Positions 4,817 through 27,370 of a stretch of 27,370 nucleotides of DNA are shown one piece after another. The notes under the pieces are model-generated. The model was not told where the DNA came from. It searched no databases and was given only the letters and a program-made list of their open reading frames with translations. Both the position numbers and the translations under genes were made by a program. The DNA is from an uncultured Clostridia bacterium (GTDB lineage: Bacteria > Bacillota > Clostridia > Monoglobales > Monoglobaceae): NCBI GenBank assembly GCA_934454115.1, contig CAKSFQ010000027.1, positions 1 through 27,370 of the forward strand, written 5' to 3'. The first letter of the stretch is position 1; each line of letters begins with the position of its first letter.

Positions 4817-5398
4817 ATGAGGACAAATAAAAAAATCTTTTCGGGCGGCGGAACCTATATTTCAAAAGTGGCAATTGCAAGGCTTACATTAAAAAAGCAC
4901 ATACAAATGATAATAGGCGGATTCTTCACGGCAATTTTTCTGTATGGAATTATTGCGGGGACTGTGGGGCATAATGAAAAGCTTCGCGAGGCCTTGATTA
5001 CCGATATTGTCATGCTTGTTCCGTCCGGATTGCTTTTGTTAAACGGCATTAAAAACGGCAAAAACGCAGGGCGTGCATATCGCTATAATGCAATCTTTAT
5101 GTGCGATGTTGATGGCACCGTGACAATTGAGGAGCTTGCAAAGCAATCCGGAAAACCGCCATACAAGGTGCTCTCGGAGCTCGAAAAGCTTTTTGAAAAA
5201 GGAGTATTCTGTGACTGCACCTTGCAAAAGCAAGGTGTACCCTGTGTGATTCTTTCGGGCAGAGAGGGCACTAAAACCAGCTTTGTCAATGTCGTGTGCG
5301 AAAAATGTAACGGAACAACAAAAATCCGTGCCGGAAGCTCCGGTAAATGCGAATATTGCGGAAACGCAATATTCGCAAGCCGGAAAACGGGCGGTTAA
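4817..5398 (+). CDS. Two-TM protein with helix-turn-helix-like segment and C-terminal zinc ribbon
   Basis: ATG 4817 lies two bases after the previous stop, with GGAGG at 4804-4808. Residues about 30-80 hold two hydrophobic helices (IIGGFFTAIFLYGIIAGTVG; IVMLVPSGLLLLNGI). A cytoplasmic stretch follows whose pattern (VTIEELAKQSGKPPYKVLSELEKLFEKGVF) looks like a winged-helix or PCI-type fold. The C-terminus is a zinc ribbon, CEKCNG...CEYCGN. The combination of membrane pair, wH-like domain and zinc ribbon resembles adaptor proteins found beside SPFH/PspA genes, but I cannot name the family. It is the last gene of the operon before two hairpins. No enzymatic motif is visible. Confidence 0.72.
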   Translation: MRTNKKIFSGGGTYISKVAIARLTLKKHIQMIIGGFFTAIFLYGIIAGTVGHNEKLREALITDIVMLVPSGLLLLNGIKNGKNAGRAYRYNAIFMCDVDGTVTIEELAKQSGKPPYKVLSELEKLFEKGVFCDCTLQKQGVPCVILSGREGTKTSFVNVVCEKCNGTTKIRAGSSGKCEYCGNAIFASRKTGG

Positions 5399-14120: not shown

Positions 14121-17069
14121 ATGAAACGAAAAAACAGAACGCTGTCTGTGCTGCTTTCTGCGGTAATACTGCTGATTTTGCCGGTTCTGCCAGCAAAGGC
14201 GGAAGATGCCAAACCGAATATAAAAATCGGAGAATATATCTGCTTGGGAACCTATGATAACGAGCCTATTTTGTGGCGATGCGTGGATATTGACGATAAC
14301 GGGCCGTTGATGCTTTCCGATAGGGTACTATGCGATTACCTGCCCTATGACGCGCGGACCAGTGAAAATTCCGCAACGGCCTCTCACAGACGCAACAGCT
14401 ATCGCAGCAAATATGGCTCTAACCACTGGCGTGACAGCAATATGCGTTCCTGGCTCAATGCTGAGGAACAAACGGTAACCTGGCTTTGCGGCAATCCTCC
14501 AAAAGCCGGCTATGTCACTGACGGGCATGCATACGACGATAAGGCCGGCTTTTTAAGCGGCTTTAAGAAAGACGAAATTTCCGCAATCAAAACGGTCACG
14601 CAGCGTTCGATTGTTTCTCACCCGGAGTACAGTGCGGGCTACATTGATGCGCCCGGAATCGATTTGCCTTACAATACCGATATTCAAACGGTTGCCGACG
14701 GATATGACAGAGCTTATTATGAAAATATTATTGACAAGGTATTTCTTCTGGATGTCAAGCAGCTCAACACGGTTTATCGAAATTTAAGGGGCTACTACAT
14801 TGCAAAGAATAAAAGCGGAGTGCCCTGGAATTACTGGCTGCGGACACCGATTACGGACTGTAATCATGATATGCGCTATGTGGACACACGCGGTAATATT
14901 TGGCGCGATGCTCCGTATAAAGGATACTACGGTGTCCGACCGGCATTTTATCTGGATGCGGAGTATTATATTGTTTCATCGGGCAGCGGTACGGAATCCG
15001 ATCCATATATCGGCGCTGCACCGGATAAGCCGGAAGATGGTATCAGCCTTTCCGGCGCAGTGAGGGATACCGGAGACGGAAACTGGGATGTTGACACGGA
15101 TCAGTACCTTCAGGTAGAGCTGAGCGAGCTGTATTCTACAGATCGTGCATACGCCAATCCAACGATTCCTGTGTATGTGATCCAGAAAACTCGTGATGAT
15201 ACAGAAAACATGGTGATTCTGTACTTAGCCGAGGGCTACGGCAAAAGTCAACAGAAACAGTTTGTCGATGATGTCCGGCGTCTGTGGCAGGAAGTATTGA
15301 AAACGGAACCGTACCGCAGCATGGCAGATTGCTTCAATGTCTATGCGCTCTGCACAGCATCGGTGGACGGTTACGGTGGCAACAGCACTTTTTTTGCTGC
15401 AAGCAAAACGGGCATTTCTGTAAACAAAGGTCAGTGGAGAAACCATGTGTTGGAGCGCATTATAGGGCCTGCCTTTATTGAAAAAATACATGACGCACAT
15501 ATTCCCAACACAACAAAGCCGAACGAATTCTCATGGGATGATGAATACAGCCCATACTATTATGTTTATGAACACATCGATCAGTTCGTAATCCTGGCAA
15601 ACAGCGGCGAGTATTTCGGCGGTTCTCACGACAATGCGAAAATCGGAATTCACTATATCCTTGCATCATCGGGCAGCTCTCTCTCTCCGTTTACCCAGAG
15701 ACATGAACTGGGGCACGGACTGCTGCACCTGGGCGACGAGTATAATACGTATGGGCAGCCTTTGCCTGAAGGGACGCTCAAAACATCACTGAATATGTCT
15801 GACACAAAGGATCCAAACAAGGTGAAGTGGAAGAATATGCTTGGATTCCGCAACACCTATACCTGCCCGCATTATGACAGCTCGTATATGTATAATTCCA
15901 GCAGGGAGTGTCTCATGCGAGAGCCTTATAAGATGGAGTTCTGTGAGGTATGCAAACTTCAGGGATTCAAGCGCATGAGCCAGCTGATTGCCGATCCGGA
16001 TAACTTGTATGTTGCCATCCCCGAGGTAAAGGAGTATACGGGAAAATACAGAAATCCATCTGAGAATGCTTCTGCCTTTGAGGCTGCAAATAGCAGCGGT
16101 TATTCCCAATATGAAGCCGACCGGAGCAATCGCCTTTTGAGCGGAACGAGCAAAAACCGATTTAATCCCGGTTTTAGGGGCAGCGAGATAGAGCTGCGTA
16201 CTATCGTTCAGAATCTGTCGGATACCGAAAAAAAGACAGTAACTCTGCGGATGTGGGTGGAACACGCTGATGGAACGAAGGCAATTACGTCAGACGGCGC
16301 GGAGGTTTCGGCAGAGAAGAGCTTTACCGTTCCCGTCTGGAGCGAAAAGCCTAATTTCTGGCAGAAGGGAGCGCTGGACTATACAGGCAGCGACTTTGAT
16401 TCCGGACTTGTTAACTGCTCTCTCGTTTATACTATCCCTCAGGATGCAGTTCTGCAAAACGGCGATACCATTGGCTTTGAAGTCGTGGATGACGCCACGG
16501 GGAAAACGCTTGCTGATGACAGCACAGAAACCCAAAACTACGCTGACGTTAAGATAGAGTACAAGCTGGAGGATGGAACCGATGTTCCCAACACCAAAAC
16601 CACAGTGCTTCCGGTCGCGGAAGGAACAAAGGTAAACTGGAAGCTCCCGGAGGAGCTGCATGGTTACACGCTTGTCAGATCGGAGGGGATGGACGAGACA
16701 GTTGGCGCCGGAGGCCTGACGATTACCTGCTATTATAAGACGAGTGAGGATCAGCCGGCAATGTCGTTTATCATTACGGACGAAAGCGGTGCGGCAGCGG
16801 GTCACCCGCTAAAGACGGGTGAATATAAGGCAAGCCTTCTTTTGCCGAAGGGTCAAAAAACAGCGACGGTTATTATTGCAAAGTATGTTAACGGAGTGCT
16901 TAAAGAATTAAAGATTTCTGAGCCGAAGGCGGCGCAGAATATAATCGAAACCGATGTTATTACGATAACGGACGAGGATTTAACAAAGCAGACCGAAATC
17001 AAAGCATTTGCCTTTGAAGATATGGGGAATATCAAATCAGTATATGATTTTCAGCATCTAACAAAATAA
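14121..17069 (+). CDS. Secreted M64-type zinc metallopeptidase with DUF6273 and MucBP-like domains
   Basis: The 982-residue protein begins with a Sec signal peptide cleaved after AKA (residue 27). Residues 35-280 resemble DUF6273 (EPILWRCVDI, SNMRSWLN, DKVFLLDVKQL, YWLRTP, GVRPAFYL), a domain common in Firmicutes surface proteins. Residues 355-660 form a peptidase with H528-E-L-G-H532 and DEY at 539-541, the HExxH...DEY pattern of MEROPS M64 (IgA peptidase family). Residues 690-800 are beta-rich, and residues 805-870 look like a MucBP repeat (VKIEYKLEDGTDVPNT). No sorting signal or SLH repeat is visible, so it is probably released. AGGAGA precedes ATG 14121. Substrate is unknown; a host or dietary glycoprotein is only a guess. 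Confidence 0.85.
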   Translation: MKRKNRTLSVLLSAVILLILPVLPAKAEDAKPNIKIGEYICLGTYDNEPILWRCVDIDDNGPLMLSDRVLCDYLPYDARTSENSATASHRRNSYRSKYGSNHWRDSNMRSWLNAEEQTVTWLCGNPPKAGYVTDGHAYDDKAGFLSGFKKDEISAIKTVTQRSIVSHPEYSAGYIDAPGIDLPYNTDIQTVADGYDRAYYENIIDKVFLLDVKQLNTVYRNLRGYYIAKNKSGVPWNYWLRTPITDCNHDMRYVDTRGNIWRDAPYKGYYGVRPAFYLDAEYYIVSSGSGTESDPYIGAAPDKPEDGISLSGAVRDTGDGNWDVDTDQYLQVELSELYSTDRAYANPTIPVYVIQKTRDDTENMVILYLAEGYGKSQQKQFVDDVRRLWQEVLKTEPYRSMADCFNVYALCTASVDGYGGNSTFFAASKTGISVNKGQWRNHVLERIIGPAFIEKIHDAHIPNTTKPNEFSWDDEYSPYYYVYEHIDQFVILANSGEYFGGSHDNAKIGIHYILASSGSSLSPFTQRHELGHGLLHLGDEYNTYGQPLPEGTLKTSLNMSDTKDPNKVKWKNMLGFRNTYTCPHYDSSYMYNSSRECLMREPYKMEFCEVCKLQGFKRMSQLIADPDNLYVAIPEVKEYTGKYRNPSENASAFEAANSSGYSQYEADRSNRLLSGTSKNRFNPGFRGSEIELRTIVQNLSDTEKKTVTLRMWVEHADGTKAITSDGAEVSAEKSFTVPVWSEKPNFWQKGALDYTGSDFDSGLVNCSLVYTIPQDAVLQNGDTIGFEVVDDATGKTLADDSTETQNYADVKIEYKLEDGTDVPNTKTTVLPVAEGTKVNWKLPEELHGYTLVRSEGMDETVGAGGLTITCYYKTSEDQPAMSFIITDESGAAAGHPLKTGEYKASLLLPKGQKTATVIIAKYVNGVLKELKISEPKAAQNIIETDVITITDEDLTKQTEIKAFAFEDMGNIKSVYDFQHLTK

Positions 17070-18493: not shown

Positions 18494-19411
18494 ATGAATA
18501 AAAAGAAGACTCTGGCATTGGCGTTGGCGCTTGTGCTGACGGCATTTTCTCTGACAGCTTGCGGCATCGCGGACAAAATTAAATTCAACAGTATGGAAAA
18601 TGAACCGAAAAACGCCGAAGAAGCGGCGGCCATGCACCAAGACCTGATGACGCAGGAAAATACGATTTTGGCAGAAAATACAGAGCTTTGGGAAAAGGTG
18701 TTTGCTGCGGCGGACAAAGGCATGACGCTGCAGGAGAACGGAAAAAACTACGGCGATTTCTTGCTCAAAACCATTGACACCGTCAAGGAACGGTTTACGG
18801 AGGACGAGCTTAAATTGCTTAAGGGTGAAGCGGAGAAAATCCGGGATATTGAAAATAAGCTGACTATGATTGAGAAAAAATATCCCAATGCCGCTCAAAA
18901 ATCGTCAGATAATGATATGAGTATGCCCTCCGGTAACGGCGTCACAGGAAATTTTCCGTCCTTTGAAGGAAGAGATCTGGACGGAAATGAGGTAAAGAGC
19001 GACGAACTCTTCTCCGGGAATGCCGTCACCGTGGTAAACTTTTGGTTCACCACCTGCTCGCCTTGCGTGGGTGAGCTTTCTGAGCTTGATGCGCTGAATA
19101 AGGAGCTTTTGGAGAAAGGCGGTTCGCTGATCGGTATCAATTCTTTTACGCTGGACGGAGACGAGGCGGCTATATCCGAGGCAAAGGCGGTTTTGAAAAA
19201 GAAAGGCGCTGCCTACCGAAACGTATACTTTGATTCAGGCAGTGAGGCAGGAAAGTTTGTCGAAAATGTATACGCTTATCCCACAACATATGTGGTTGAC
19301 CGCAGCGGCAGCATCGTAGGAGAGCCCATCGTCGGCGCCGTTACCGGCAAATCGCAGATGGAGAAGCTGAAATCGCTCATCGATCAATGCATTGCTGCCG
19401 ACATGGGATGA
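18494..19411 (+). CDS. TlpA-family thioredoxin-like lipoprotein
   Basis: AGGAGG at 18481-18486 precedes ATG 18494. The signal peptide ends in lipobox LTAC with C23 as the lipidated residue. Residues 35-130 are helical and acidic (coiled-coil-like: LMTQENTILAENTELWEKVF). Residues 150-300 form a TlpA/AhpC-like thioredoxin fold with active-site C188-S-P-C191 (NFWFTTCSPCVGELSEL) and a YPTTYVVDR loop carrying the cis-proline. It is expected to act as a disulfide reductase or oxidoreductase on the outer face of the membrane, with electrons from the upstream NapH-like protein and CXXC peptide. Last gene before the terminator at 19548. Confidence 0.9.
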   Translation: MNKKKTLALALALVLTAFSLTACGIADKIKFNSMENEPKNAEEAAAMHQDLMTQENTILAENTELWEKVFAAADKGMTLQENGKNYGDFLLKTIDTVKERFTEDELKLLKGEAEKIRDIENKLTMIEKKYPNAAQKSSDNDMSMPSGNGVTGNFPSFEGRDLDGNEVKSDELFSGNAVTVVNFWFTTCSPCVGELSELDALNKELLEKGGSLIGINSFTLDGDEAAISEAKAVLKKKGAAYRNVYFDSGSEAGKFVENVYAYPTTYVVDRSGSIVGEPIVGAVTGKSQMEKLKSLIDQCIAADMG

Positions 19412-19547: not shown

Positions 19548-19597
19548 AAAAGCCGCCCGACATAGAGGCAATATGCCTTTTTGCCGGGCGGCTTTTT
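19548..19597 (+). terminator. Strong terminator between the redox cassette and the recombinase
   Basis: AAAAGCCGCCCG at 19548-19559 pairs with CGGGCGGCTTTT at 19585-19596 (12 bp), with an inner AGGCA/TGCCT stem and a T run. A-tract and T-tract on either side make it potentially bidirectional. It isolates the recombinase from upstream transcription. The rest of 19412-19765 holds no gene. Confidence 0.92.
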
Positions 19598-19728
19598 ATA
19601 ATGTTGAAAAAACGCAAGCAATTTTTATATCGTTTTATCAAAGCAGATGCGTTTTTTCGGCAATTTTAATAAAATTTGGGAGAAAGGAAGAAACTGTTGA
19701 CAGCTTCGATTTATATATTTTGACTAAG

Positions 19729-19737
19729 TGGTACAAT
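19729..19737 (+). promoter_or_regulatory. Likely extended -10 promoter of the recombinase
   Basis: TG at 19729-19730, one base, then TACAAT at 19732-19737 form an extended -10 element 29 bp before the start codon. No good -35 stands at 16-18 bp; TTGACA at 19697 is too far and TTGACT at 19720 too close. Weak basal expression is expected. Confidence 0.5.
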
Positions 19738-19765
19738 ATATAGGACAAGAAAGGAAGCGGTCAAT

Positions 19766-20611
19766 ATGAAGTTACAGAGCATAACCGAAAAACAAATTCA
19801 AAAATTTAAAAGGTATCTTGTAAATGAAGAAAAGTCGGATGCTACCATCGAGAAATATATTCGTGATATTACGGCATTTTCCGGATGGCTTGGCGGAGGA
19901 ATCCCGTGCAAGGAAAAAGTGATTCAATACAAGGAGTGTCTGATTGCGCAATACAAAACTGCAAGCGTTAACTCCATATTATCCTCGCTCAATACTTTTT
20001 TTGAATATGCAGATTGGCACAAAATGAAGGTAAAAACCTTAAAGATGCAGCGCCAAATTTTTGCGGATCAATCCAAGGAGCTTACTAAGGCAGAGTATGA
20101 AAGATTGCTGATGGCGGCAAAGGATAAGAAAAATGAAAAGTTATATTACCTGATACAGACGATTGCAAGTACAGGCCTTCGGGTTTCCGAAATTCAATTT
20201 GTGACCTGTGAGGCCATAAGACGCGGACAGGCAGTGATAAGCTGCAAGGGAAAAATACGACAGGTGTTTCTGCCGAAAAAACTGTGTGTCATTCTGAAAA
20301 AGTATGTGTCAGAGCATGGCATTAAAAATGGCAGCGTATTTGTTACAAGAACCGGCGCTCCTCTTGACAGGTCAAATATATGGAGAATGTTAAAGAATCT
20401 TTGTGAGAGTGCGGGTGTGTCAAAGGAAAAAGTGTTTCCTCATAACTTTCGCCATTTATTTGCAAGAACCTATTATTCCCTGCAAAAGGATATTGTAAGG
20501 CTTGCCGATATACTCGGTCATTCCAACATTAACACCACAAGAATTTACACCACGGAAAGCGGAATGGAGCATATGAAGCAGCTACAAAAACTCGGTTTCT
20601 TAAGGACATGA
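19766..20611 (+). CDS. Tyrosine recombinase, probable DNA invertase for the adjacent promoter
   Basis: The 281-residue XerC/D-size protein has an N-terminal SAM-like core-binding domain (residues 5-90) and a catalytic domain with the full set: R139 (STGLRVSEI), K163 (CKGKIRQ), H226 and R229 (PHNFRHLFA), H252 (LGHSNINTT) and Y261. It should cut and rejoin DNA through a 3'-phosphotyrosine bond. It stands alone after a strong terminator, with its own weak promoter and a GGAAG ribosome site. Its stop is 5 bases from the left 24-bp repeat of the putative invertible segment. That placement argues it is a dedicated invertase rather than XerC/XerD housekeeping or a prophage integrase; no phage genes are near. 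Confidence 0.93.
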   Translation: MKLQSITEKQIQKFKRYLVNEEKSDATIEKYIRDITAFSGWLGGGIPCKEKVIQYKECLIAQYKTASVNSILSSLNTFFEYADWHKMKVKTLKMQRQIFADQSKELTKAEYERLLMAAKDKKNEKLYYLIQTIASTGLRVSEIQFVTCEAIRRGQAVISCKGKIRQVFLPKKLCVILKKYVSEHGIKNGSVFVTRTGAPLDRSNIWRMLKNLCESAGVSKEKVFPHNFRHLFARTYYSLQKDIVRLADILGHSNINTTRIYTTESGMEHMKQLQKLGFLRT

Positions 20612-20615
20612 AAAA

Positions 20616-20639
20616 ACAACATAATAGCGATTATGTTGT
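20616..20639 (+). repeat. Left inversion site (IRL), 24 bp
   Basis: Arms ACAACATAAT (20616-20625) and ATTATGTTGT (20630-20639) are perfect complements around the core AGCG. The whole 24 bp is the exact reverse complement of 20886-20909. A likely recombinase binding and crossover site. Confidence 0.92.
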
Positions 20640-20789
20640 AACCAAATATTTTTTTGTATGGAATGGCGCAATAAGCTAAAAAAAATTTAAAAATTTTGAA
20701 AGAATTTTTTTATAAAAATGCTTGTGAAATAGACCAATGACATGCATTTTCTACATTGGCCTGATTTGCTGTACTGTTTTTTATTACAT

Positions 20790-20801
20790 GATTCATGAAT
20801 C
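20790..20801 (+). promoter_or_regulatory. 12-bp palindrome upstream of the invertible promoter
   Basis: GATTCATGAATC is a perfect palindrome ending 22 bp before the -35 box, a position suited to an activator or repressor. No cognate regulator is visible in the window. Confidence 0.35.
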
Positions 20802-20823
20802 GAGGAAAAGAAACTGCAAACTG

Positions 20824-20852
20824 TTGACAAATTCGACTTTATATGATAAAAT
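20824..20852 (+). promoter_or_regulatory. Sigma-A promoter inside the invertible segment
   Basis: TTGACA at 20824-20829, 17-bp spacer, TAAAAT at 20847-20852. The predicted start is about 20859, giving a leader that passes through the right repeat before the polymerase gene. It is the only strong promoter seen ahead of the polysaccharide operon. Confidence 0.88.
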
Positions 20853-20885
20853 ATATGTAGGTATGTATACTGTTCTTTCGATGGC

Positions 20886-20909
20886 ACAACATAATCGCTA
20901 TTATGTTGT
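20886..20909 (+). repeat. Right inversion site (IRR), 24 bp
   Basis: Same 10-bp arms as the left site around the core CGCT, the reverse complement of the left core AGCG. In RNA it would fold into a 10-bp hairpin in the leader of the operon. Confidence 0.92.
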
Positions 20910-20967
20910 AATCGTATTGAACGCATATGATTTAAAACAATTGGGAGGAAACGGAGGCGCGGGAGCA

Positions 20968-22122
20968 TTGATAGAAGGATTGAAAAAGAAAGAGGTTGGA
21001 ATTCCTTGTATTCTTGCCTGTGTGTACTTTCTCGCGCTGCCGCTTACCATTACAATAAACTCCGCAGGAAATTCCTTTTTAAAGCTGCTGACCATACCCA
21101 TTGCCGGGTATTTTGTGGCAAACTGGTTTTTCTATCGAAAAAAGCTGGAGCTTAACGCGATTCACTTATTATCATTTTTATATCTGATAACGGTTGTTAT
21201 GACACTGTTTGCGGACAGAAGTCCGGTTGCCCTGCAATATGTGAGAGGCTATTTTGAAACGATGGGTTTGATGTTTCTTATAACCATGCGAAAATATACG
21301 GAAAATGAAATCAAAGCGTTTGAGCTTACACAGCTTGCACTCCTCGGCGTGATGATTACGCTCGGATTTATCGGTGCGGATTGGTACGGCGACAGAAACA
21401 CGATGACAATATTCGGAACGACAAGTGATCCAAATTACTTTACCGGATTTTTTCTTCTGCCTATGGCGGTTGCAATGAAAAAAATACGCGAGAACAAAAT
21501 CTATATCGTTGTGTGTGCGGTTTTGCTTGCTCTCGGGGCGTATATGGTTTTTACCTCCGGCTCGCGCGGCGGACTGTTCGGGCTTGCGGTTATGATAATG
21601 TCATACGTGTTCATAAATGCAAAGGGGGCAAAACAGCGTATTATCGGCATTTGTACGGCAATCGGCATGGCAGTGATTTTGTGGACGATTGTTATTCCGC
21701 TTTTGCCGGATGACGTTTCGGCGCGCTTTAGTATAAAGGAGCTTATCGAATCGCATGGCACGGGACGCGGCGATATATGGCTTTCCATGCTCGACACGAT
21801 CAAACGCTCGTCGCGGGAGTTATTATATGGCAGAGGAATCTTTGCTTATCACGAAATGATGATAGACGGAAGACTGGTGCAGGTGGTGGCACACAACCAA
21901 TTGATACAGTTGCTCTATAATCAGGGCATACCGGGGTTTGTAACATTTATTCTGATGTCTCTTGCAGCAGTATTGAGAAATATAAAAAAACGGGGATATA
22001 TCTCGGCGGCAATGCTTGGTATATTGGCTCTTTCTATGACGCTTACCATCAATACGAGCATCAAGGCGTATTGGAATCTGCTGATTTATGCGGCATTTTC
22101 CTTTGATACACCCGAAAAATGA
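20968..22122 (+). CDS. O-antigen ligase/polymerase-like membrane protein (Wzy/Wzy_C type)
   Basis: TTG 20968 is chosen because GGAGG at 20953-20957 lies about 10 bases upstream and the following residues run straight into the first membrane helix; the frame is open further upstream to ATG 20863. The product of about 384 residues has some ten membrane helices and the Wzy_C hallmarks: TSGSRGG after a helix, then a large outer loop with GTGRGDIWLSML, LLYGRG and AHNQLIQLLYNQGIPG. Such proteins polymerise or ligate polysaccharide repeat units on lipid carrier at the outer face of the membrane. It is the first gene of the operon under the invertible promoter. Polymerase versus ligase cannot be decided; a polymerase fits the neighbours. 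Confidence 0.87.
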   Translation: MIEGLKKKEVGIPCILACVYFLALPLTITINSAGNSFLKLLTIPIAGYFVANWFFYRKKLELNAIHLLSFLYLITVVMTLFADRSPVALQYVRGYFETMGLMFLITMRKYTENEIKAFELTQLALLGVMITLGFIGADWYGDRNTMTIFGTTSDPNYFTGFFLLPMAVAMKKIRENKIYIVVCAVLLALGAYMVFTSGSRGGLFGLAVMIMSYVFINAKGAKQRIIGICTAIGMAVILWTIVIPLLPDDVSARFSIKELIESHGTGRGDIWLSMLDTIKRSSRELLYGRGIFAYHEMMIDGRLVQVVAHNQLIQLLYNQGIPGFVTFILMSLAAVLRNIKKRGYISAAMLGILALSMTLTINTSIKAYWNLLIYAAFSFDTPEK

Positions 22123-22136
22123 AAAGGAGATTCTGT

Positions 22137-23591
22137 ATGATATTTAGGAGTAAAACGCCGTATCCGGAGAAAAAAATATCGAATGAAAACGCGGAATACC
22201 CTGAGAATATACTGCTTGCGGAGAACCATAGAAGTAAAATGCCGAAAGTAAAGCAGAGTTATTTGCTGAAATGCATCATTATAGTTGCTGCGGTTGTTGC
22301 CGTCTGCATAATCGCGGGAAATCTGAATACGGCATACACAACCGTTTCAATTTCATTTTCTGAAATAACGAAGGGGTGCAATCCGGACGGATCGCCGTTT
22401 GATATTTATGAGGTGCTGAGCGACGAGGTCTTAGCAAACGCTTGTGACAGGCTGGATGATAAGCTAAGCCCCGATATGCTGAAGGAGCATATTTCCGTTA
22501 CCGGCATCACCACGGACGGCAGTTTTAACGCAATAAGGCAGAATGTTCTCGATGGAAACGATACATATTCATACTTTCCGTCAAAATATACAATTTCATA
22601 TTCGGTCATCTCGGATTCGATTAAGGCAAATGGTGTGCCGGCGTCCGTCGGAGCGGTTTTGAAACAGTTTGTGTTGCCGTCAAAAGGAAAAATAATAGCT
22701 GCCGTTGCCGACAGCTATAAGGAATATTATGAAGATAAGTATATTTTCACAAGCGCTGTGTTTGATGTGGACTGGTCAGAAACAAAATCACTCGATTATT
22801 TCAACCGTGCCGGTGAGATGCAAAACGTTATAAACCGCATAAACAGGTATTTGTCAAGCCGTTACGATGAGGACGTGAGGTTTGTTTCAAAGGACGGTGT
22901 GAGCTTCGGCGATCTGAGTGCGGAACTGTCAAGAATAACGGACAACGATGTCGAAACGTACAAGGCGTTTGTGATCCAAAACGGGATTACCGCCGACAAG
23001 GACAAGCTTTTAAAGCAGTTCTGCTATGTATCAAAAGAAAAATACGAGCAGACACAGAGAAACCGCGGTGAATATAACATTATGCTGGACGGGATATCCG
23101 TGTATGACCCGCTTGTCACGAAGGTAGTGTTTATTCCGGCGTTGGATTCGGACAATGTATTTTATATGAACAGAACAAAAATCGGAATAGATTACCTGAC
23201 GGAAAACGCAAGCAAAGCGAACCTCTCCGGTGACGAGTCGGAAAACGAGGCGCATTATTACGACTATCTGATAGATCAATTTTCCGCATTTGAAGAAAGC
23301 GCGGATTGGGTTAAAAAGGCCGCAGATAAGCAATGCGACGATATTACGGCGAAAATAGACGAATTCTTAAAAAGAGCCGCCGCCGTAAATGACGAGTACA
23401 TCAATCATGTATCTTATGAAACATTGTATATAAGCGGTATAGGTTACGGACATGGAGTTATTTTCTCTGCTGTGACGATTGCCAAAATAACGATTATATG
23501 GTCTGCGGCGCTCTATGTATGGTGGCTTATCTATTCTCTTTTGAAAAGAAAAAAGACCAAAAAGGAGGAAATCGATAATGCTGCTGCGTGA
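22137..23591 (+). CDS. Polysaccharide co-polymerase-like membrane protein 1 (Wzz/chain-length type)
   Basis: ATG 22137 with AAAAGGAGA upstream is preferred over ATG 22119, which overlaps the previous stop. About 484 residues: a basic cytoplasmic N-terminus, a membrane helix (CIIIVAAVVAVCIIAGNL), a large extracytoplasmic helical domain, and a second helix near the end (ITIIWSAALYVWWLIYSLL) followed by a lysine-rich tail. This two-helix topology with a big external domain is that of polysaccharide co-polymerases setting chain length. No Walker motif or tyrosine kinase domain is present. The sequence is divergent, so the call rests on topology and context between the polymerase and a second similar protein. 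Confidence 0.6.
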   Translation: MIFRSKTPYPEKKISNENAEYPENILLAENHRSKMPKVKQSYLLKCIIIVAAVVAVCIIAGNLNTAYTTVSISFSEITKGCNPDGSPFDIYEVLSDEVLANACDRLDDKLSPDMLKEHISVTGITTDGSFNAIRQNVLDGNDTYSYFPSKYTISYSVISDSIKANGVPASVGAVLKQFVLPSKGKIIAAVADSYKEYYEDKYIFTSAVFDVDWSETKSLDYFNRAGEMQNVINRINRYLSSRYDEDVRFVSKDGVSFGDLSAELSRITDNDVETYKAFVIQNGITADKDKLLKQFCYVSKEKYEQTQRNRGEYNIMLDGISVYDPLVTKVVFIPALDSDNVFYMNRTKIGIDYLTENASKANLSGDESENEAHYYDYLIDQFSAFEESADWVKKAADKQCDDITAKIDEFLKRAAAVNDEYINHVSYETLYISGIGYGHGVIFSAVTIAKITIIWSAALYVWWLIYSLLKRKKTKKEEIDNAAA

Positions 23592-24945
23592 TTTTTTAAA
23601 CGGGCTTTATGAGCATAAAAAAATATTTGTGATACTGCTTGCTGTAAGCGTTATTCTTTGCTCCTTAAAGCTGAAGCTTGACGAAAGCTATACATCGGAG
23701 ATACTGATAAAGTATATCGGCGCAAAGGCGGAGGATGGACTTTCCGAAAACGGCGAAAAAATCAATCCTTATGAAATAAAAAGCTCGATTGTGATAAAAA
23801 ACGCATTGACGGAGCTTGGGTTTAAGACGGCAAACATTGAGGAGATCAGCCGTAACATTACAGTTACCCCCATCATACCCACCGCTGAACAGGAAAAATA
23901 TGCATCGTGGATTGATAAATTCTCGGACTATGAAAAAAACGAGGATGAAAAAAAGAATACGGTGTATTACTCGGTAAAATATACTACATCAAAGGGAAAT
24001 GACTACGCCAAGCGTATGCTCAGCGCCGTTTTCAGTCAGTATCGCATATATTATGTCGAAAACTATACCTACAGCTACGGAATAACCAATCTGTCGGGAG
24101 ATGTGGCGATGCAGTACGATTACTATGATACGGTGGATATGCTGCGCAAGAAAATAAACGCGAACATTGAGTACCTGGCGAGAGTTTATGAGGCGGAAAA
24201 GGATTATCGTTCGCCGCAGACGGGGTATTCACTTTTGGATTTGATTGCAGAGTATAAATCACTTAACGAACGGGACATATCGGTTGCGGAGCGTATGGTT
24301 GTCGAAAATGGTATCACAAAAAATGCGTGGTATTTGAGAAGCGCTTTAAACAATAAAATGACGGATGCGGCGTATGATATTGACCTTAACAACAAGAAAG
24401 CGGAAACGCAAAAAGGGCTAATGGCGGTTTATTCCGACAAAAATAAGCAGTATCTTTGGGACAGAGACGGACGGAACAAGGACGACGATGAAAGCGAAGG
24501 TGCACAGGTGCGTGAAAACGTTGAGCGCGACTATAACTATGTTCAAAATAAGTCGGTATATGATCAGCTTGTTTTAGACTATGTCAAATACCGTACTAAC
24601 GCGTTGAATACAGATATCGACAGACGGCGCTATGAGACAGATGCGAACAGCCTTCCCGACGGATTTTCAAATAAGGAGCTTCAAAACGCGCTTGAGACGC
24701 GCCTTGAAAGTGCGTGTGAAAAATTTAACAAACTTTATTCACTCACAAAAGATACAATAGATGATTATAACTCATACAAGTCTGCGCAGAGCATAGCCTG
24801 CATTTCGGGTGTTGTGGCGCATAAAACCGTAAGCACGGTATTTTACTATGCGGTGGGTCTTGTGCTTGCGCTGATGCTTGGTTTTCTGATATGCGGCGTG
24901 TTGGTATATATTAGGAAGGACGAAACAGAAACGGCGGGAGAATAA
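23578..24945 (+). CDS. Polysaccharide co-polymerase-like membrane protein 2 (Wzz type)
   Basis: ATG 23578 overlaps the previous gene by 14 bases and has AGGAGG at 23562-23567. The 455-residue protein has an N-terminal helix (FVILLAVSVILCSLKL), the short beta segment typical of Wzz (YTSEILIKYIGAKA), a long external coiled-coil-rich domain, and a C-terminal helix pair region (VFYYAVGLVLALMLGFLICG) with a short charged tail. The N-terminal part (RDFLNGLYEHKKIFVILL) resembles Wzz-domain proteins more clearly than its neighbour does. It probably partners the upstream protein and polymerase to control chain length or export. No kinase domain. Confidence 0.7.
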   Translation: MLLRDFLNGLYEHKKIFVILLAVSVILCSLKLKLDESYTSEILIKYIGAKAEDGLSENGEKINPYEIKSSIVIKNALTELGFKTANIEEISRNITVTPIIPTAEQEKYASWIDKFSDYEKNEDEKKNTVYYSVKYTTSKGNDYAKRMLSAVFSQYRIYYVENYTYSYGITNLSGDVAMQYDYYDTVDMLRKKINANIEYLARVYEAEKDYRSPQTGYSLLDLIAEYKSLNERDISVAERMVVENGITKNAWYLRSALNNKMTDAAYDIDLNNKKAETQKGLMAVYSDKNKQYLWDRDGRNKDDDESEGAQVRENVERDYNYVQNKSVYDQLVLDYVKYRTNALNTDIDRRRYETDANSLPDGFSNKELQNALETRLESACEKFNKLYSLTKDTIDDYNSYKSAQSIACISGVVAHKTVSTVFYYAVGLVLALMLGFLICGVLVYIRKDETETAGE

Positions 24946-24946
24946 T

Positions 24947-25963
24947 ATGGAATTGGAATTGTGCGGATATTTTGATCATAATTTCGGCGATGATTATATG
25001 CAGAAAATAACGGCGCATTATATGCCGGAATATAATTTTTACGTAGACGCGCGCAATTCTCTCTCACGCTTGCTGCTTGACGAAAAAAATGTCAGCTTAA
25101 AAAATAGTGAACAGAAGAAAAACCTCCCAAAGCTGTTGGTCACCGGTTCCGGGTTTATGGTGAACAGCCGTGCGGCGCTGCGGTGTGAGCTTGTATGGTT
25201 TTTCAAACGAAAGCGCATTGCTGATTACTGTATCGGCTGCAACATCGAGCCGTTTCAAAGCAGACTTGCCGAATGGCTTGTCATACATAAACTGAGGAAA
25301 TTTAAGTGCATCATATGTCGTGACAAGAATAGCTTTTTATGGCTTCAAAAAAAGTGTCCGAATACAATGGTCTCCTATATGCCGGATATTCTGTTCGGAA
25401 TGCCAAAGGGTTGGCTTCCGGAAAAATCGGACGGCGATAAACTCGGTATATCGCCTATCCGCTGTGCCGGGAATTACGGCAGTTACTATTTACAAATGGC
25501 ACAGGCTGCTGATTACTGGATTAAAAATACCGGAAAAGGCGTGATACTTCTTGCCTTTGATGTCGGTTCTGAAGACGATATATCCGCATGTGAAAAAGTG
25601 AAAAGCCTGATAACCCATAAGGACGCGGTTGAAATTGTGAAACATGGAGTCAATGGAGAGATTCCAAACGCATTTTCTAAGTGCCGTAAGGTCATCGGCG
25701 CAAGATTTCACTCAGCTGTGCTCAGTCTGAAAATGAACATAGATTTTTACCCGATTACAGATCGGCAAAAAATGCGAAATTTGTTATCCGATATCGCTTA
25801 TCCCATAGCCGGGTGTGATATTCGCTCGGTCGATATAGGAAAAATTCAGAATTTTCTGATATCTGAGCCGCTTCGCTTCAAACCGTGTAAGCATTATGAA
25901 ACGGACGTTGACAAAGCCTTTGCGGCGATGAAGGCACAAATTGAAGAAAGGAGATGGTTGTGA
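24947..25963 (+). CDS. Polysaccharide pyruvyl transferase family protein
   Basis: The 338-residue protein shows the family pattern: an N-terminal FGDD (residues 13-16) after a CGY strand, a LVTGSGFM strand-loop, CIICRDKNSFLWL, a VSYMPDILF strand, and the C-terminal GARFHSAVLSLKMNI motif, in which the R and H are conserved in pyruvyl transferases. These enzymes transfer pyruvate from phosphoenolpyruvate to a sugar, giving an acidic ketal. Its place between co-polymerase and priming-transferase genes suggests it decorates the polysaccharide made by this operon. ATG 24947 follows the previous stop by one base. Acceptor sugar unknown. Confidence 0.85.
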   Translation: MELELCGYFDHNFGDDYMQKITAHYMPEYNFYVDARNSLSRLLLDEKNVSLKNSEQKKNLPKLLVTGSGFMVNSRAALRCELVWFFKRKRIADYCIGCNIEPFQSRLAEWLVIHKLRKFKCIICRDKNSFLWLQKKCPNTMVSYMPDILFGMPKGWLPEKSDGDKLGISPIRCAGNYGSYYLQMAQAADYWIKNTGKGVILLAFDVGSEDDISACEKVKSLITHKDAVEIVKHGVNGEIPNAFSKCRKVIGARFHSAVLSLKMNIDFYPITDRQKMRNLLSDIAYPIAGCDIRSVDIGKIQNFLISEPLRFKPCKHYETDVDKAFAAMKAQIEERRWL

Positions 25964-26667
25964 TGGAAACCGTAATAAAAAGCAATACCGAAAAGGTAAT
26001 ATTGCCGTTTACAAGAACGGATGAAATATATGAGGTTGAAAAAATAACCTGTCTGCCGCCAAAACCGATATACGGCTTTATAAAGCGAGCGGTTGATATG
26101 ATCGCTGCGCTTTTCGGAGTGATACTTCTTCTGATCCCAATGATTATTACCTATATATGCGTGGCGGTAACGTCAAAGGGAAACCCGATATACAGACAGG
26201 AACGGCTCGGACTCGGCGGTAAGCGGTTTTACATATATAAATTCAGAACAATGGTTGAAAATGCCGAGGAGGACGGAATCCGCTGGTCACTCGGCGAGGA
26301 TGATGAACGGCTGACGGCGGTCGGCAGGGTTTTAAGAAGAACAAAATTTGATGAGATACCGCAGCTATTTAACTGCCTTGCGGGTGATTTGTCGCTTGTG
26401 GGGCCGCGCCCGGAAAGAGCGGTTTTTTATAAATGCTTTGAGGCCTATATTCATGGTTTTTCACAAAGACTTATGGTAAAGCCGGGCATTACAGGGCTTG
26501 CGCAGATAACCGGTCTGTTTTTAAGACCGGAGGAAAAAATCAAATACGATATAGAATATATAAAAAATCGTTCGCTTTTATTGGATATAAAAATACTGCT
26601 ATTAACGGTTGCCGTTGTGATAAGGGGGGATGGACAAAAGGGGCCAAAGTGGGGCAGCGGCAAATGA
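25963..26667 (+). CDS. Priming sugar-phosphate transferase (undecaprenyl-phosphate type)
   Basis: ATG 25963 overlaps the previous stop by one base and has AAAGGAG 9 bases upstream; ATG 25954 abuts that site and is less likely. The 234-residue protein is a short-form bacterial sugar transferase (PF02397): one membrane helix (MIAALFGVILLLIPMIITYI), then YRQERLGLGGKRFYIYKFRTM, the catalytic-region LRRTKFDEIPQLFN, LSLVGPRPE, and VKPGITGLAQI. It moves a sugar-1-phosphate from a nucleotide sugar to undecaprenyl phosphate at the inner face of the membrane, starting each repeat unit. It lies fifth in the operon and would commit precursor to the phase-controlled polysaccharide. Confidence 0.93.
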   Translation: METVIKSNTEKVILPFTRTDEIYEVEKITCLPPKPIYGFIKRAVDMIAALFGVILLLIPMIITYICVAVTSKGNPIYRQERLGLGGKRFYIYKFRTMVENAEEDGIRWSLGEDDERLTAVGRVLRRTKFDEIPQLFNCLAGDLSLVGPRPERAVFYKCFEAYIHGFSQRLMVKPGITGLAQITGLFLRPEEKIKYDIEYIKNRSLLLDIKILLLTVAVVIRGDGQKGPKWGSGK

Positions 26668-27370
26668 AGAAAATATTGTTTATAGCTACGGTGGTAAAAA
26701 CGCACATCAACACGTTTCATTTGCCATACATAAAAATGTTTAAAGAATGCGGTTACAAAACGGTGGTTGCCGCAAAAAACGATTATGAGGACGGTATGGT
26801 AAGTATTCCGGACTGCGATTTATATATAGACATTCCTTTTAATAGAAATCCGTTTTCAGCGAGCAATGTCAAGGCATACAAAATGCTGAAAGCAGTCATA
26901 GACAACGGAAATTTTGATATTATAGAGTGCAATACCCCCATCGGCAGCGTGATCGGCAGACTTGCCGCAAGAGACGCGAGAAAAAAGGGAACCAAAGTCA
27001 TTTACATTGCGCACGGATTTCACTTTTTTAGGGGCAGTTCAAAATTGGCTTGGCTTATCTTTTACCCCGTTGAAAGATTGCTGGCGCATATCACCGATGT
27101 TTTGGTTACGATTAACCGTGAGGACTATGAAAGAGCGTCAAAAAAATTCAAAGCAAAACAAATCGTTCACATAGACGGAATCGGTGTGGATTTGGAAAGG
27201 ATCGAAGACAGCCGCCCGGACAAAAGCAGGGTGCGCCGTGAGTTTGGGATAAAGGAGAGCGATACGGTTCTTATATCGGTCGGAGAGCTTCGTAAACTGA
27301 AAAATCATCGAACAATTATTGAGGCAATGGCAAAAATCGAAAACAAAAACCTGCATTATATTATCGCAGG
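26664..27370 (+). CDS. Glycosyltransferase family 4 protein (EpsD-like), 3'-truncated by the window
   Basis: ATG 26664 overlaps the previous stop (ATGA) and the frame runs off the right edge after 235 codons. The N-terminus is a GT-B donor/acceptor domain: MKKILFIATVVKTHINTFHL, IIECNTPIGSVIGRLAAR, IYIAHGFHFFRGSS, VLVTINREDYERA, and HIDGIGVDLERI. The start of the nucleotide-sugar domain follows (VLISVGELRKLKNHRTIIEA). This matches GT4 enzymes of exopolysaccharide loci such as EpsD. It would add a sugar to the lipid-linked unit begun by the priming transferase. Donor and linkage cannot be predicted. Confidence 0.9.
   Translation, partial: MKKILFIATVVKTHINTFHLPYIKMFKECGYKTVVAAKNDYEDGMVSIPDCDLYIDIPFNRNPFSASNVKAYKMLKAVIDNGNFDIIECNTPIGSVIGRLAARDARKKGTKVIYIAHGFHFFRGSSKLAWLIFYPVERLLAHITDVLVTINREDYERASKKFKAKQIVHIDGIGVDLERIEDSRPDKSRVRREFGIKESDTVLISVGELRKLKNHRTIIEAMAKIENKNLHYIIA

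Follow-up and report, generated by a model that had tools for sequence, protein, structure and literature searches.

In Bacteroides, the capsular polysaccharide switches of the Mpi type are served by a global serine recombinase, which acts on many unlinked promoters. In the fim switch of Escherichia coli (fimS with FimB/FimE), the fimE RNA is controlled in an orientation-dependent manner. The promoter segment of this switch, 314 base pairs (bp) long, is inverted by a tyrosine integrase (PMC9993118). In Clostridioides difficile, the tyrosine recombinase RecV is linked with inversions upstream of surface and motility genes (cwpV, the flagellar switch and CmrRST). PMC5903667 describes RecV as a master recombinase in charge of several sites and reports that 14 of the 15 inversion-positive Firmicutes samples are Clostridia. 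The closest described group is the inverton group 139 with the invertase group 35, obtained with PhaseFinderDC in a defined gut community (PMC11892184, Microbiome 2025). The group comprises 33 invertons, 32 of them from Clostridia, nearly all near a tyrosine-type recombinase. Two members, those of Clostridium sp. D5 and Intestinimonas butyriciproducens, shift between orientations in reads; their coordinates correspond to 26-bp arms and a 205-bp spacer in the former, and to 14-bp arms and a 227-bp spacer in the latter. Here we describe a stretch of 27,370 nucleotides from an uncultured Clostridia bacterium (contig CAKSFQ010000027.1 of assembly GCA_934454115.1; the whole stretch is called the window), in which a tyrosine recombinase gene is followed by a promoter-bearing segment between inverted repeats and then by genes of surface polysaccharide type.

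The window has in common with group 139 and invertase group 35 a Clostridia host and a tyrosine recombinase within 5 kilobases (kb). By host and recombinase linkage, the window switch is probably of the same kind. Since read-supported flipping has been published for this tyrosine-recombinase-linked Clostridia group, the window can be regarded as a further case of a known kind of switch. As in the Mpi-type switches, a promoter lying between inverted repeats precedes polysaccharide genes; however, the window recombinase is of the tyrosine type by its Pfam matches, not a serine recombinase, and it is adjacent to the segment. RecV serves several sites and is not linked to each of them. In contrast, the recombinase is adjacent in the window, and a recombinase stands beside one site in 13 of the 13 cassettes fetched from [Clostridium] symbiosum ATCC 14940 (genome G008, that of locus L071; the sites on its contig C229 are not included) and Clostridium transplantifaecale (G007, that of locus L077). 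The E. coli fim switch differs from the window in host, sites and recombinases.

We consider it very likely that this locus is a self-contained switch, in which the linked recombinase inverts the promoter. Its parts are as follows (positions in the window).

19766..20611, plus strand: tyrosine recombinase, probable invertase (open reading frame (ORF) of 281 amino acids (aa); Pfam matches; alignment)
20616..20639, plus strand: left recombination site, ACAACATAAT-AGCG-ATTATGTTGT; read leftwards, a hairpin and then a T-run, resembling an intrinsic terminator
20640..20885, no strand: probable invertible segment, 246 bp, with no credible gene; it aligns reversed to the segment of locus L012
20824..20852, plus strand: segment promoter, TTGACA-17-TAAAAT with TG before the -10 element; it faces the operon (ON orientation)
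20886..20909, plus strand: right recombination site, ACAACATAAT-CGCT-ATTATGTTGT; read rightwards, it showed no structure resembling a terminator

The recombinase matches the Pfam families Phage_integrase (4.7e-27) and Phage_int_SAM_1 (1.4e-6), and its top-scoring solved relatives are XerC-like, XerA and XerD proteins. In an alignment of 20 sequences, R139, K161 or K163, H226, R229, H252 and Y261 are invariant or nearly invariant; we take these to be the usual catalytic places of tyrosine recombinases. With these presumed roles the catalytic set is intact, in accordance with the original prediction. The predicted adjacency to the repeat also holds, with a gap of 4 bases, not 5, between the stop codon and the left repeat. 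The two 24-bp repeats, expected to be exact reverse complements 270 bp apart, are so at 24 of 24 positions (270 bp from start to start, 246 bp between). Each repeat is itself palindromic, with 10-bp arms ACAACATAAT and ATTATGTTGT, and the asymmetry is confined to the 4-bp core. When the site pattern was searched in the window with the core free and at most 3 mismatches, only these two sites were found, and 100 shuffles gave no match. The promoter between them, recognised by its consensus, agrees with it at 11 of 12 positions. The listed ORFs of at least 80 aa that cross the segment are a 93-aa ORF on the minus strand and an upstream extension of the first operon gene. This agrees with the prediction of a consensus promoter and no gene between the repeats. 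That the sequenced copy is ON, as had been proposed, follows from the direction of the promoter.

In the proposed mechanism, the linked tyrosine recombinase, probably the catalyst of the inversion, would bind the common 10-bp arms of both sites, and strand exchange would take place in the 4-bp cores, which are identical. The asymmetry and inverted arrangement of these cores would make inversion the outcome for the 246-bp segment. When the segment is ON, transcription from the promoter at 20824-20852 would run through the right site into the polysaccharide genes, which would depend on this promoter for their expression. In the OFF orientation, the promoter would face the recombinase, and the hairpin and T-run of the left site would probably stop the transcript before it becomes antisense to the recombinase. 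The population from which the window was sequenced presumably switches between these two orientations. This would make the locus a concrete on/off switch for a surface polysaccharide in a little-studied lineage of Clostridia.

We compared the locus with its relatives. A protein search with the recombinase listed 120 of 8000 scored candidates, and every one of the 8000 was a homologue at E <= 0.001. The nearest proteins among the matches listed are 99% and 88% identical, and an attempt to trace these two to DNA found none. A scan of genome contigs with the single recombinase sequence found no relative; the same scan with the 20-sequence alignment gave at least 590 stretches and at least 482 relatives, and the best 80 of the 482 were kept. 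Together with 3 plasmid loci, taken from 582 plasmid records with a recombinase match, and the window, they make up the 84 loci compared. The relatives are mostly titled Clostridia or groups within Clostridia, and a few only Bacilli, Bacillota or bacterium. Closer relatives sought with the recombinase in the families of genomes G019 and G024 reached at best 68% identity. A search with the anaerobic ribonucleotide reductase in the order of genome G017 gave full-length matches of 72-76% and partial ones of up to 79%. The full-length matches and the titles of the relatives point to a Clostridia host for the window.

The architecture of the window is conserved in these loci. Allowing for at most 2 mismatches, the motif ACATAAT-NNNN-ATTATGT was counted 150 times in the 142 kb that lie within 900 bp of a recombinase end, against 10 times in all the rest (961 kb). 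In 60 of the 84 loci there is both a left and a right site, and the cores are reverse-complementary in 65 of 67 left-right combinations (the same in one, other in one). The arms are common across loci, the cores vary between loci, and 36 distinct cores are found in the 60 cassettes when the strand is ignored. Of 10 whole genomes with such loci, 9 contain the exact motif, compared with none for a reversed-pattern control. Within one family, 30 of the 70 genomes contain it (control, 1), and 31 of the 70 have a recombinase relative at E <= 1e-60. Arms ACATAAT/ATTATGT, a free core and an adjacent recombinase provide a signature for finding such switches in draft genomes. Twelve loci have two sites less than 90 bp apart at one segment end (L001, L004, L011, L040, L041, L043, L051, L062, L083 and L014, L022, L028), with the same core in nine of the twelve, as if the site had been duplicated in tandem.

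The segments of the 60 loci are 124-516 bp long, and most of them carry a promoter. A promoter score of at least 11 was reached in 42 of 59 segments (one containing N was dropped) versus 2.2% of 590 shuffles, and a score of at least 12 in 28 of 59 versus no shuffle. The best promoter points away from the recombinase (ON) in 13 segments, including the window, and towards it (OFF) in 39; in 8 the direction is unclear. Forty segments combine a clear direction with a score of at least 11; in these, the distance from the end of the -10 element to the faced site has a median of 38 bp in the 8 ON segments and 37 bp in the 32 OFF segments, with outliers from 4 to 226. We also aligned the segments with their promoters masked: 51 segments gave 80 aligned pairs, of which 61 run as the promoter-direction calls predict. 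The agreement rises to 35 of 36 pairs at E <= 1e-5 and to 25 of 25 at 1e-7. Shuffled queries, in five rounds in all, gave 36, 2 and 0 pairs at 1e-2, 1e-5 and 1e-7, respectively.

Opposite orientations are observed directly between relatives. Loci L057 and L074, whose recombinases are 88% identical, share a collinear flank that takes in the recombinase and the left site (83%). From site to site they align in reverse (76%, 289 bp), and a 47-bp stretch around the right site is again collinear. The upstream flank is collinear and the segment reversed (67% each) in L057/L082 and L054/L074 as well. For L054 and L057, which were both called ON, the whole alignment is collinear. The window and L012, with recombinases at 64% identity, align collinearly as far as the left site; within the segment, 188 bp align in reverse (65%, 5e-14). 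With the promoter masked, the reversed match covers 57 bp (79%, 1.6e-8) and is among the 25 pairs at 1e-7. The window and L012 thus show a reversed segment beside a collinear flank, more weakly than L057 and L074. The promoter-masked match of the window with L022 is also reversed (5e-5), and that with L021 is weakly direct (0.002).

Draft assemblies break at the sites. Of 80 loci, 11 have a contig end in the first 300 bp after the recombinase, and none has one in the 300 bp preceding it. Contigs end or begin 0-4 bp from the site motif in five genomes: G070 (C23, C25), G026 (C4), G073 (C1, C5), G019 (C83) and G072 (C71). In genome G066, the recombinase-side contig C2 and the downstream-side contig C42 start with the same 77 bases, which hold 16-17 bases from within the segment. 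In the related genome G072 these 16-17 bases are found once, at the segment end away from the recombinase. Otherwise C2 matches the recombinase side of G072 (89%) and C42 matches contig C71 of G072 (97%); the start of C71 and the end of the G072 segment contig have an overlap of 30 bases. Most simply, this means that the G066 reads contained both segment junctions. An unusually long inverted repeat in G066 would be an alternative, as the contigs examined do not hold its whole segment. The left site of G073 is where contigs C7 and C5 overlap, by exactly 77 bases and without having been merged, as expected for a branch point. The prediction of an invertible switch is thus supported by the reversed segments beside collinear flanks and by the assembly breaks at the sites, and that of a self-contained one by the sites beside the recombinase and by promoters in both directions at mirrored distances.

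The recombinase-side site may also act as a terminator. In the window, the left site read leftwards is predicted to fold into a 10-bp hairpin with an A+T-rich stem followed by six T (-8.3 kcal/mol). Of 60 loci, 39 have a leftward hairpin with a T-run at the left junction or close to it, and by this criterion 21 have none. Rightward structures were found at 13 right junctions and 5 left junctions of the 60, and 5 and 5 in the recombinase coding controls. When recombinases were clustered at 70% identity, the left structure was in the majority in 17 of 29 clusters versus 5 for the right one (7 versus 1 of 15 at 65%, 3 versus 1 of 7 at 60%). An A-run stands outside the left site in 28 of 60 loci (background 11% in the recombinase, 16-17% in segments and downstream) and a T-run outside the right site in 5 of 60 (8% downstream, 16% in segments). 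In some loci, e.g., L042, L074, L078 and L082, the structure is replaced by a separate hairpin, rich in G+C, that lies between recombinase and left site. These predicted folds suggest that the left structure may stop the OFF-facing promoter from making antisense RNA across the recombinase. The terminator role is plausible but unproven; if true, it would explain how a promoter can face its own recombinase gene without shutting the recombinase down. In the titles and beginnings of abstracts compared, we found no recombination site described as doubling as a terminator against its linked recombinase, which is not proof of absence. The compared sections of the group 139 literature mention neither this role nor the anatomy of shared arms and private cores. 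The terminator role at the recombinase-side junction is a possible new detail. At L013, L040 and L083 the right site is followed by a T-run and is terminator-like in the ON direction, so that the genes downstream may need read-through or anti-termination.

It is also conceivable, though improbable, that the segment inverts but mainly serves the recombinase or another gene, the operon being read mostly from an undetected or read-through promoter. The OFF-facing promoters do point at the recombinase in 39 of 60 loci, and the operon continues past the window end. However, the first downstream ORF (at least 90 aa) is co-oriented in 57 of 59 loci, the leftward terminator-like structure at the left junction (39 of 60) would block transcription towards the recombinase, and the plus-strand promoter matches downstream in the window do not exceed 9 of 12.

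Several observations weigh against inversion as proposed here. No site pair is found in 24 of the 84 loci. In 12 of these the locus ends within 392 bp of the recombinase; the other 12 are not truncated in this way, and altered sites occur in some of them. Altered-site pairs are seen in L003, L061, L069 and L080. In L069 (8842-8866 and 9062-9086) the architecture is kept with changed arms (ACCACGGAAT instead of ACCACATAAT), suggesting that arm sequence and recombinase can diverge together. The promoter direction is not clear in 8 of 60 segments, and 19 of the 80 segment alignments contradict the direction calls, all but one with E > 1e-5. The directions of L057 and L074 were called from weak promoters (score 9.5), the collinear alignment of L054/L074 runs about 86 bp into the segment, and L011/L013 is ambiguous, being both collinear (1709 bp, 65%) and reversed (284 bp, 68%). 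As for the terminator, that of the left site is a folding prediction of -8.3 kcal/mol for an A+T-rich stem, and ON transcription would have to pass terminator-like right junctions in 13 of 60 loci. Finally, the window by itself shows one orientation, and the three cassettes common to G007 and G008 keep the same orientation (3 of 3). The last two points, and the hairpins that the sites form, would also fit a fixed promoter between palindromic terminators or protein-binding sites, with the recombinase acting elsewhere and no inversion. We regard this as very unlikely, given the reversed segments beside collinear flanks, both junctions in G066, the reverse-complementary cores in 65 of 67 combinations and the promoters facing either way. 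Least credible of all is that the repeats serve an integrated mobile element as attachment sites, with the recombinase as its integrase and the segment as a degenerate remnant: the family matches are to integrase and Xer proteins and some relatives lie on large plasmid records, but the sites are inverted and not direct, the recombinase is outside the segment, the 60 segments of 124-516 bp mostly carry a promoter, no DNA match was found in 50,697 phage records, and a scan of viral contigs found no relative.

Returning to promoter inversion by the linked recombinase, the anatomy of the sites allows a tentative extension. In this view, many Clostridia would have several self-contained switches. 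Shared arms might permit one recombinase to act on the sites of another, private asymmetric 4-bp cores might serve as addresses that confine strand exchange to one cassette, and a one-way terminator at the recombinase-side site might prevent silencing of the recombinase by the OFF-facing promoter and so let OFF cells switch back. The use of cores as addresses is plausible but unproven and is suggested by site anatomy. Relevant to it, cores within a genome are no more distinct than expected by chance. Selection for distinct cores within a genome was rejected: a hand count gave 2 identical cores among about 84 within-genome cassette pairs listed, and there is no sign of core avoidance, since the pool frequency of 0.025 predicts about 2. 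None of the 60 pairs has a palindromic core, whereas equal likelihood of all cores predicts about 4; this is weak evidence because related loci share cores. In L071 the sites lie 112, 6282 and 6564 bp after the recombinase, and the core AATG recurs about 6 kb on, with its partner at the contig end; this is either a second same-core cassette or a scaffolding artefact around an N gap. The segment of L055 contains a near-perfect inverted repeat of 62 bp (5110-5171 and 5299-5360).

Downstream of the right site of the window there are six co-oriented genes of surface polysaccharide type, the last of which is cut by the window end. The operon extends beyond this end.

20968..22122, plus strand: Wzy_C O-antigen ligase/polymerase-like membrane protein (family match; TTG start chosen by eye)
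22119..23591, plus strand: 490-aa protein with no significant Pfam or NCBIfam match
23578..24945, plus strand: 455-aa protein with no significant Pfam or NCBIfam match and hydrophobic stretches near both ends
24947..25963, plus strand: polysaccharide pyruvyl transferase (family matches)
25954..26667, plus strand: bacterial sugar transferase, polyprenyl glycosylphosphotransferase family (family matches)
26649..27370, plus strand: glycosyltransferase family 4-like protein, cut by the window end (family matches)

A Pfam and NCBIfam search with relaxed limits still gave nothing significant for the 490-aa and 455-aa proteins; features of the latter judged by eye suggest a chain-length (Wzz-like) protein. 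Between 20860 and 27370 there are 11 promoter-like sites (mean of shuffles, 14.3), and those on the plus strand reach only 9 of 12 matches, which bears out the description of a six-gene operon with no other visible promoter.

In relatives, the genes downstream of the switch are varied. Families were matched for 57 ORFs in first position and for 71 of 85 listed ORFs that come after them, with the first 25 of 87 families for each, and among those listed no family occurs in more than 5 of the 57 first ORFs or 4 of the 71 following ones. The families include those of repeat-rich surface proteins, of cohesin, dockerin, isopeptide, leucine-rich repeat and S-layer homology domains and of polysaccharide genes (Wzz, CpsB/CapC, sugar transferases), and in addition TetR regulators (4 of 57) and one match each to EAL and GGDEF. 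Among the targets, surface features thus stand out but are not alone, and the polysaccharide operon of the window is one case. Since varied genes, with large surface proteins prominent, follow it in relatives, this kind of switch is not specific for exopolysaccharide. The predicted control of an exopolysaccharide operon agrees with the polysaccharide-type genes of the window but does not extend to the switch in general.

Upstream of the recombinase, a further feature resembles the invertible promoter.

19691..19740, plus strand: probable recombinase promoter region; its TTGACA stretch at 19691-19712 resembles the invertible promoter at 19 of 22 bases

A promoter shared in kind by recombinase and operon was rejected as a general feature: the own pairs of 52 loci average 15.31 and 208 random pairs average 15.18, one of which also reached 19. 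As the two averages are alike, the resemblance of the two TTGACA stretches is not general. Further upstream, an inverted repeat of 23 bp (87% complementary, with a T-rich end) at 19548-19596 follows a thioredoxin-like gene that ends at 19411 and is probably its terminator. A 982-aa protein encoded at 14121-17069 has matches to IgA peptidase M64 and DUF6273, and its start looks like a signal peptide by eye. DUF6273 is also found downstream of the switches in some relatives.

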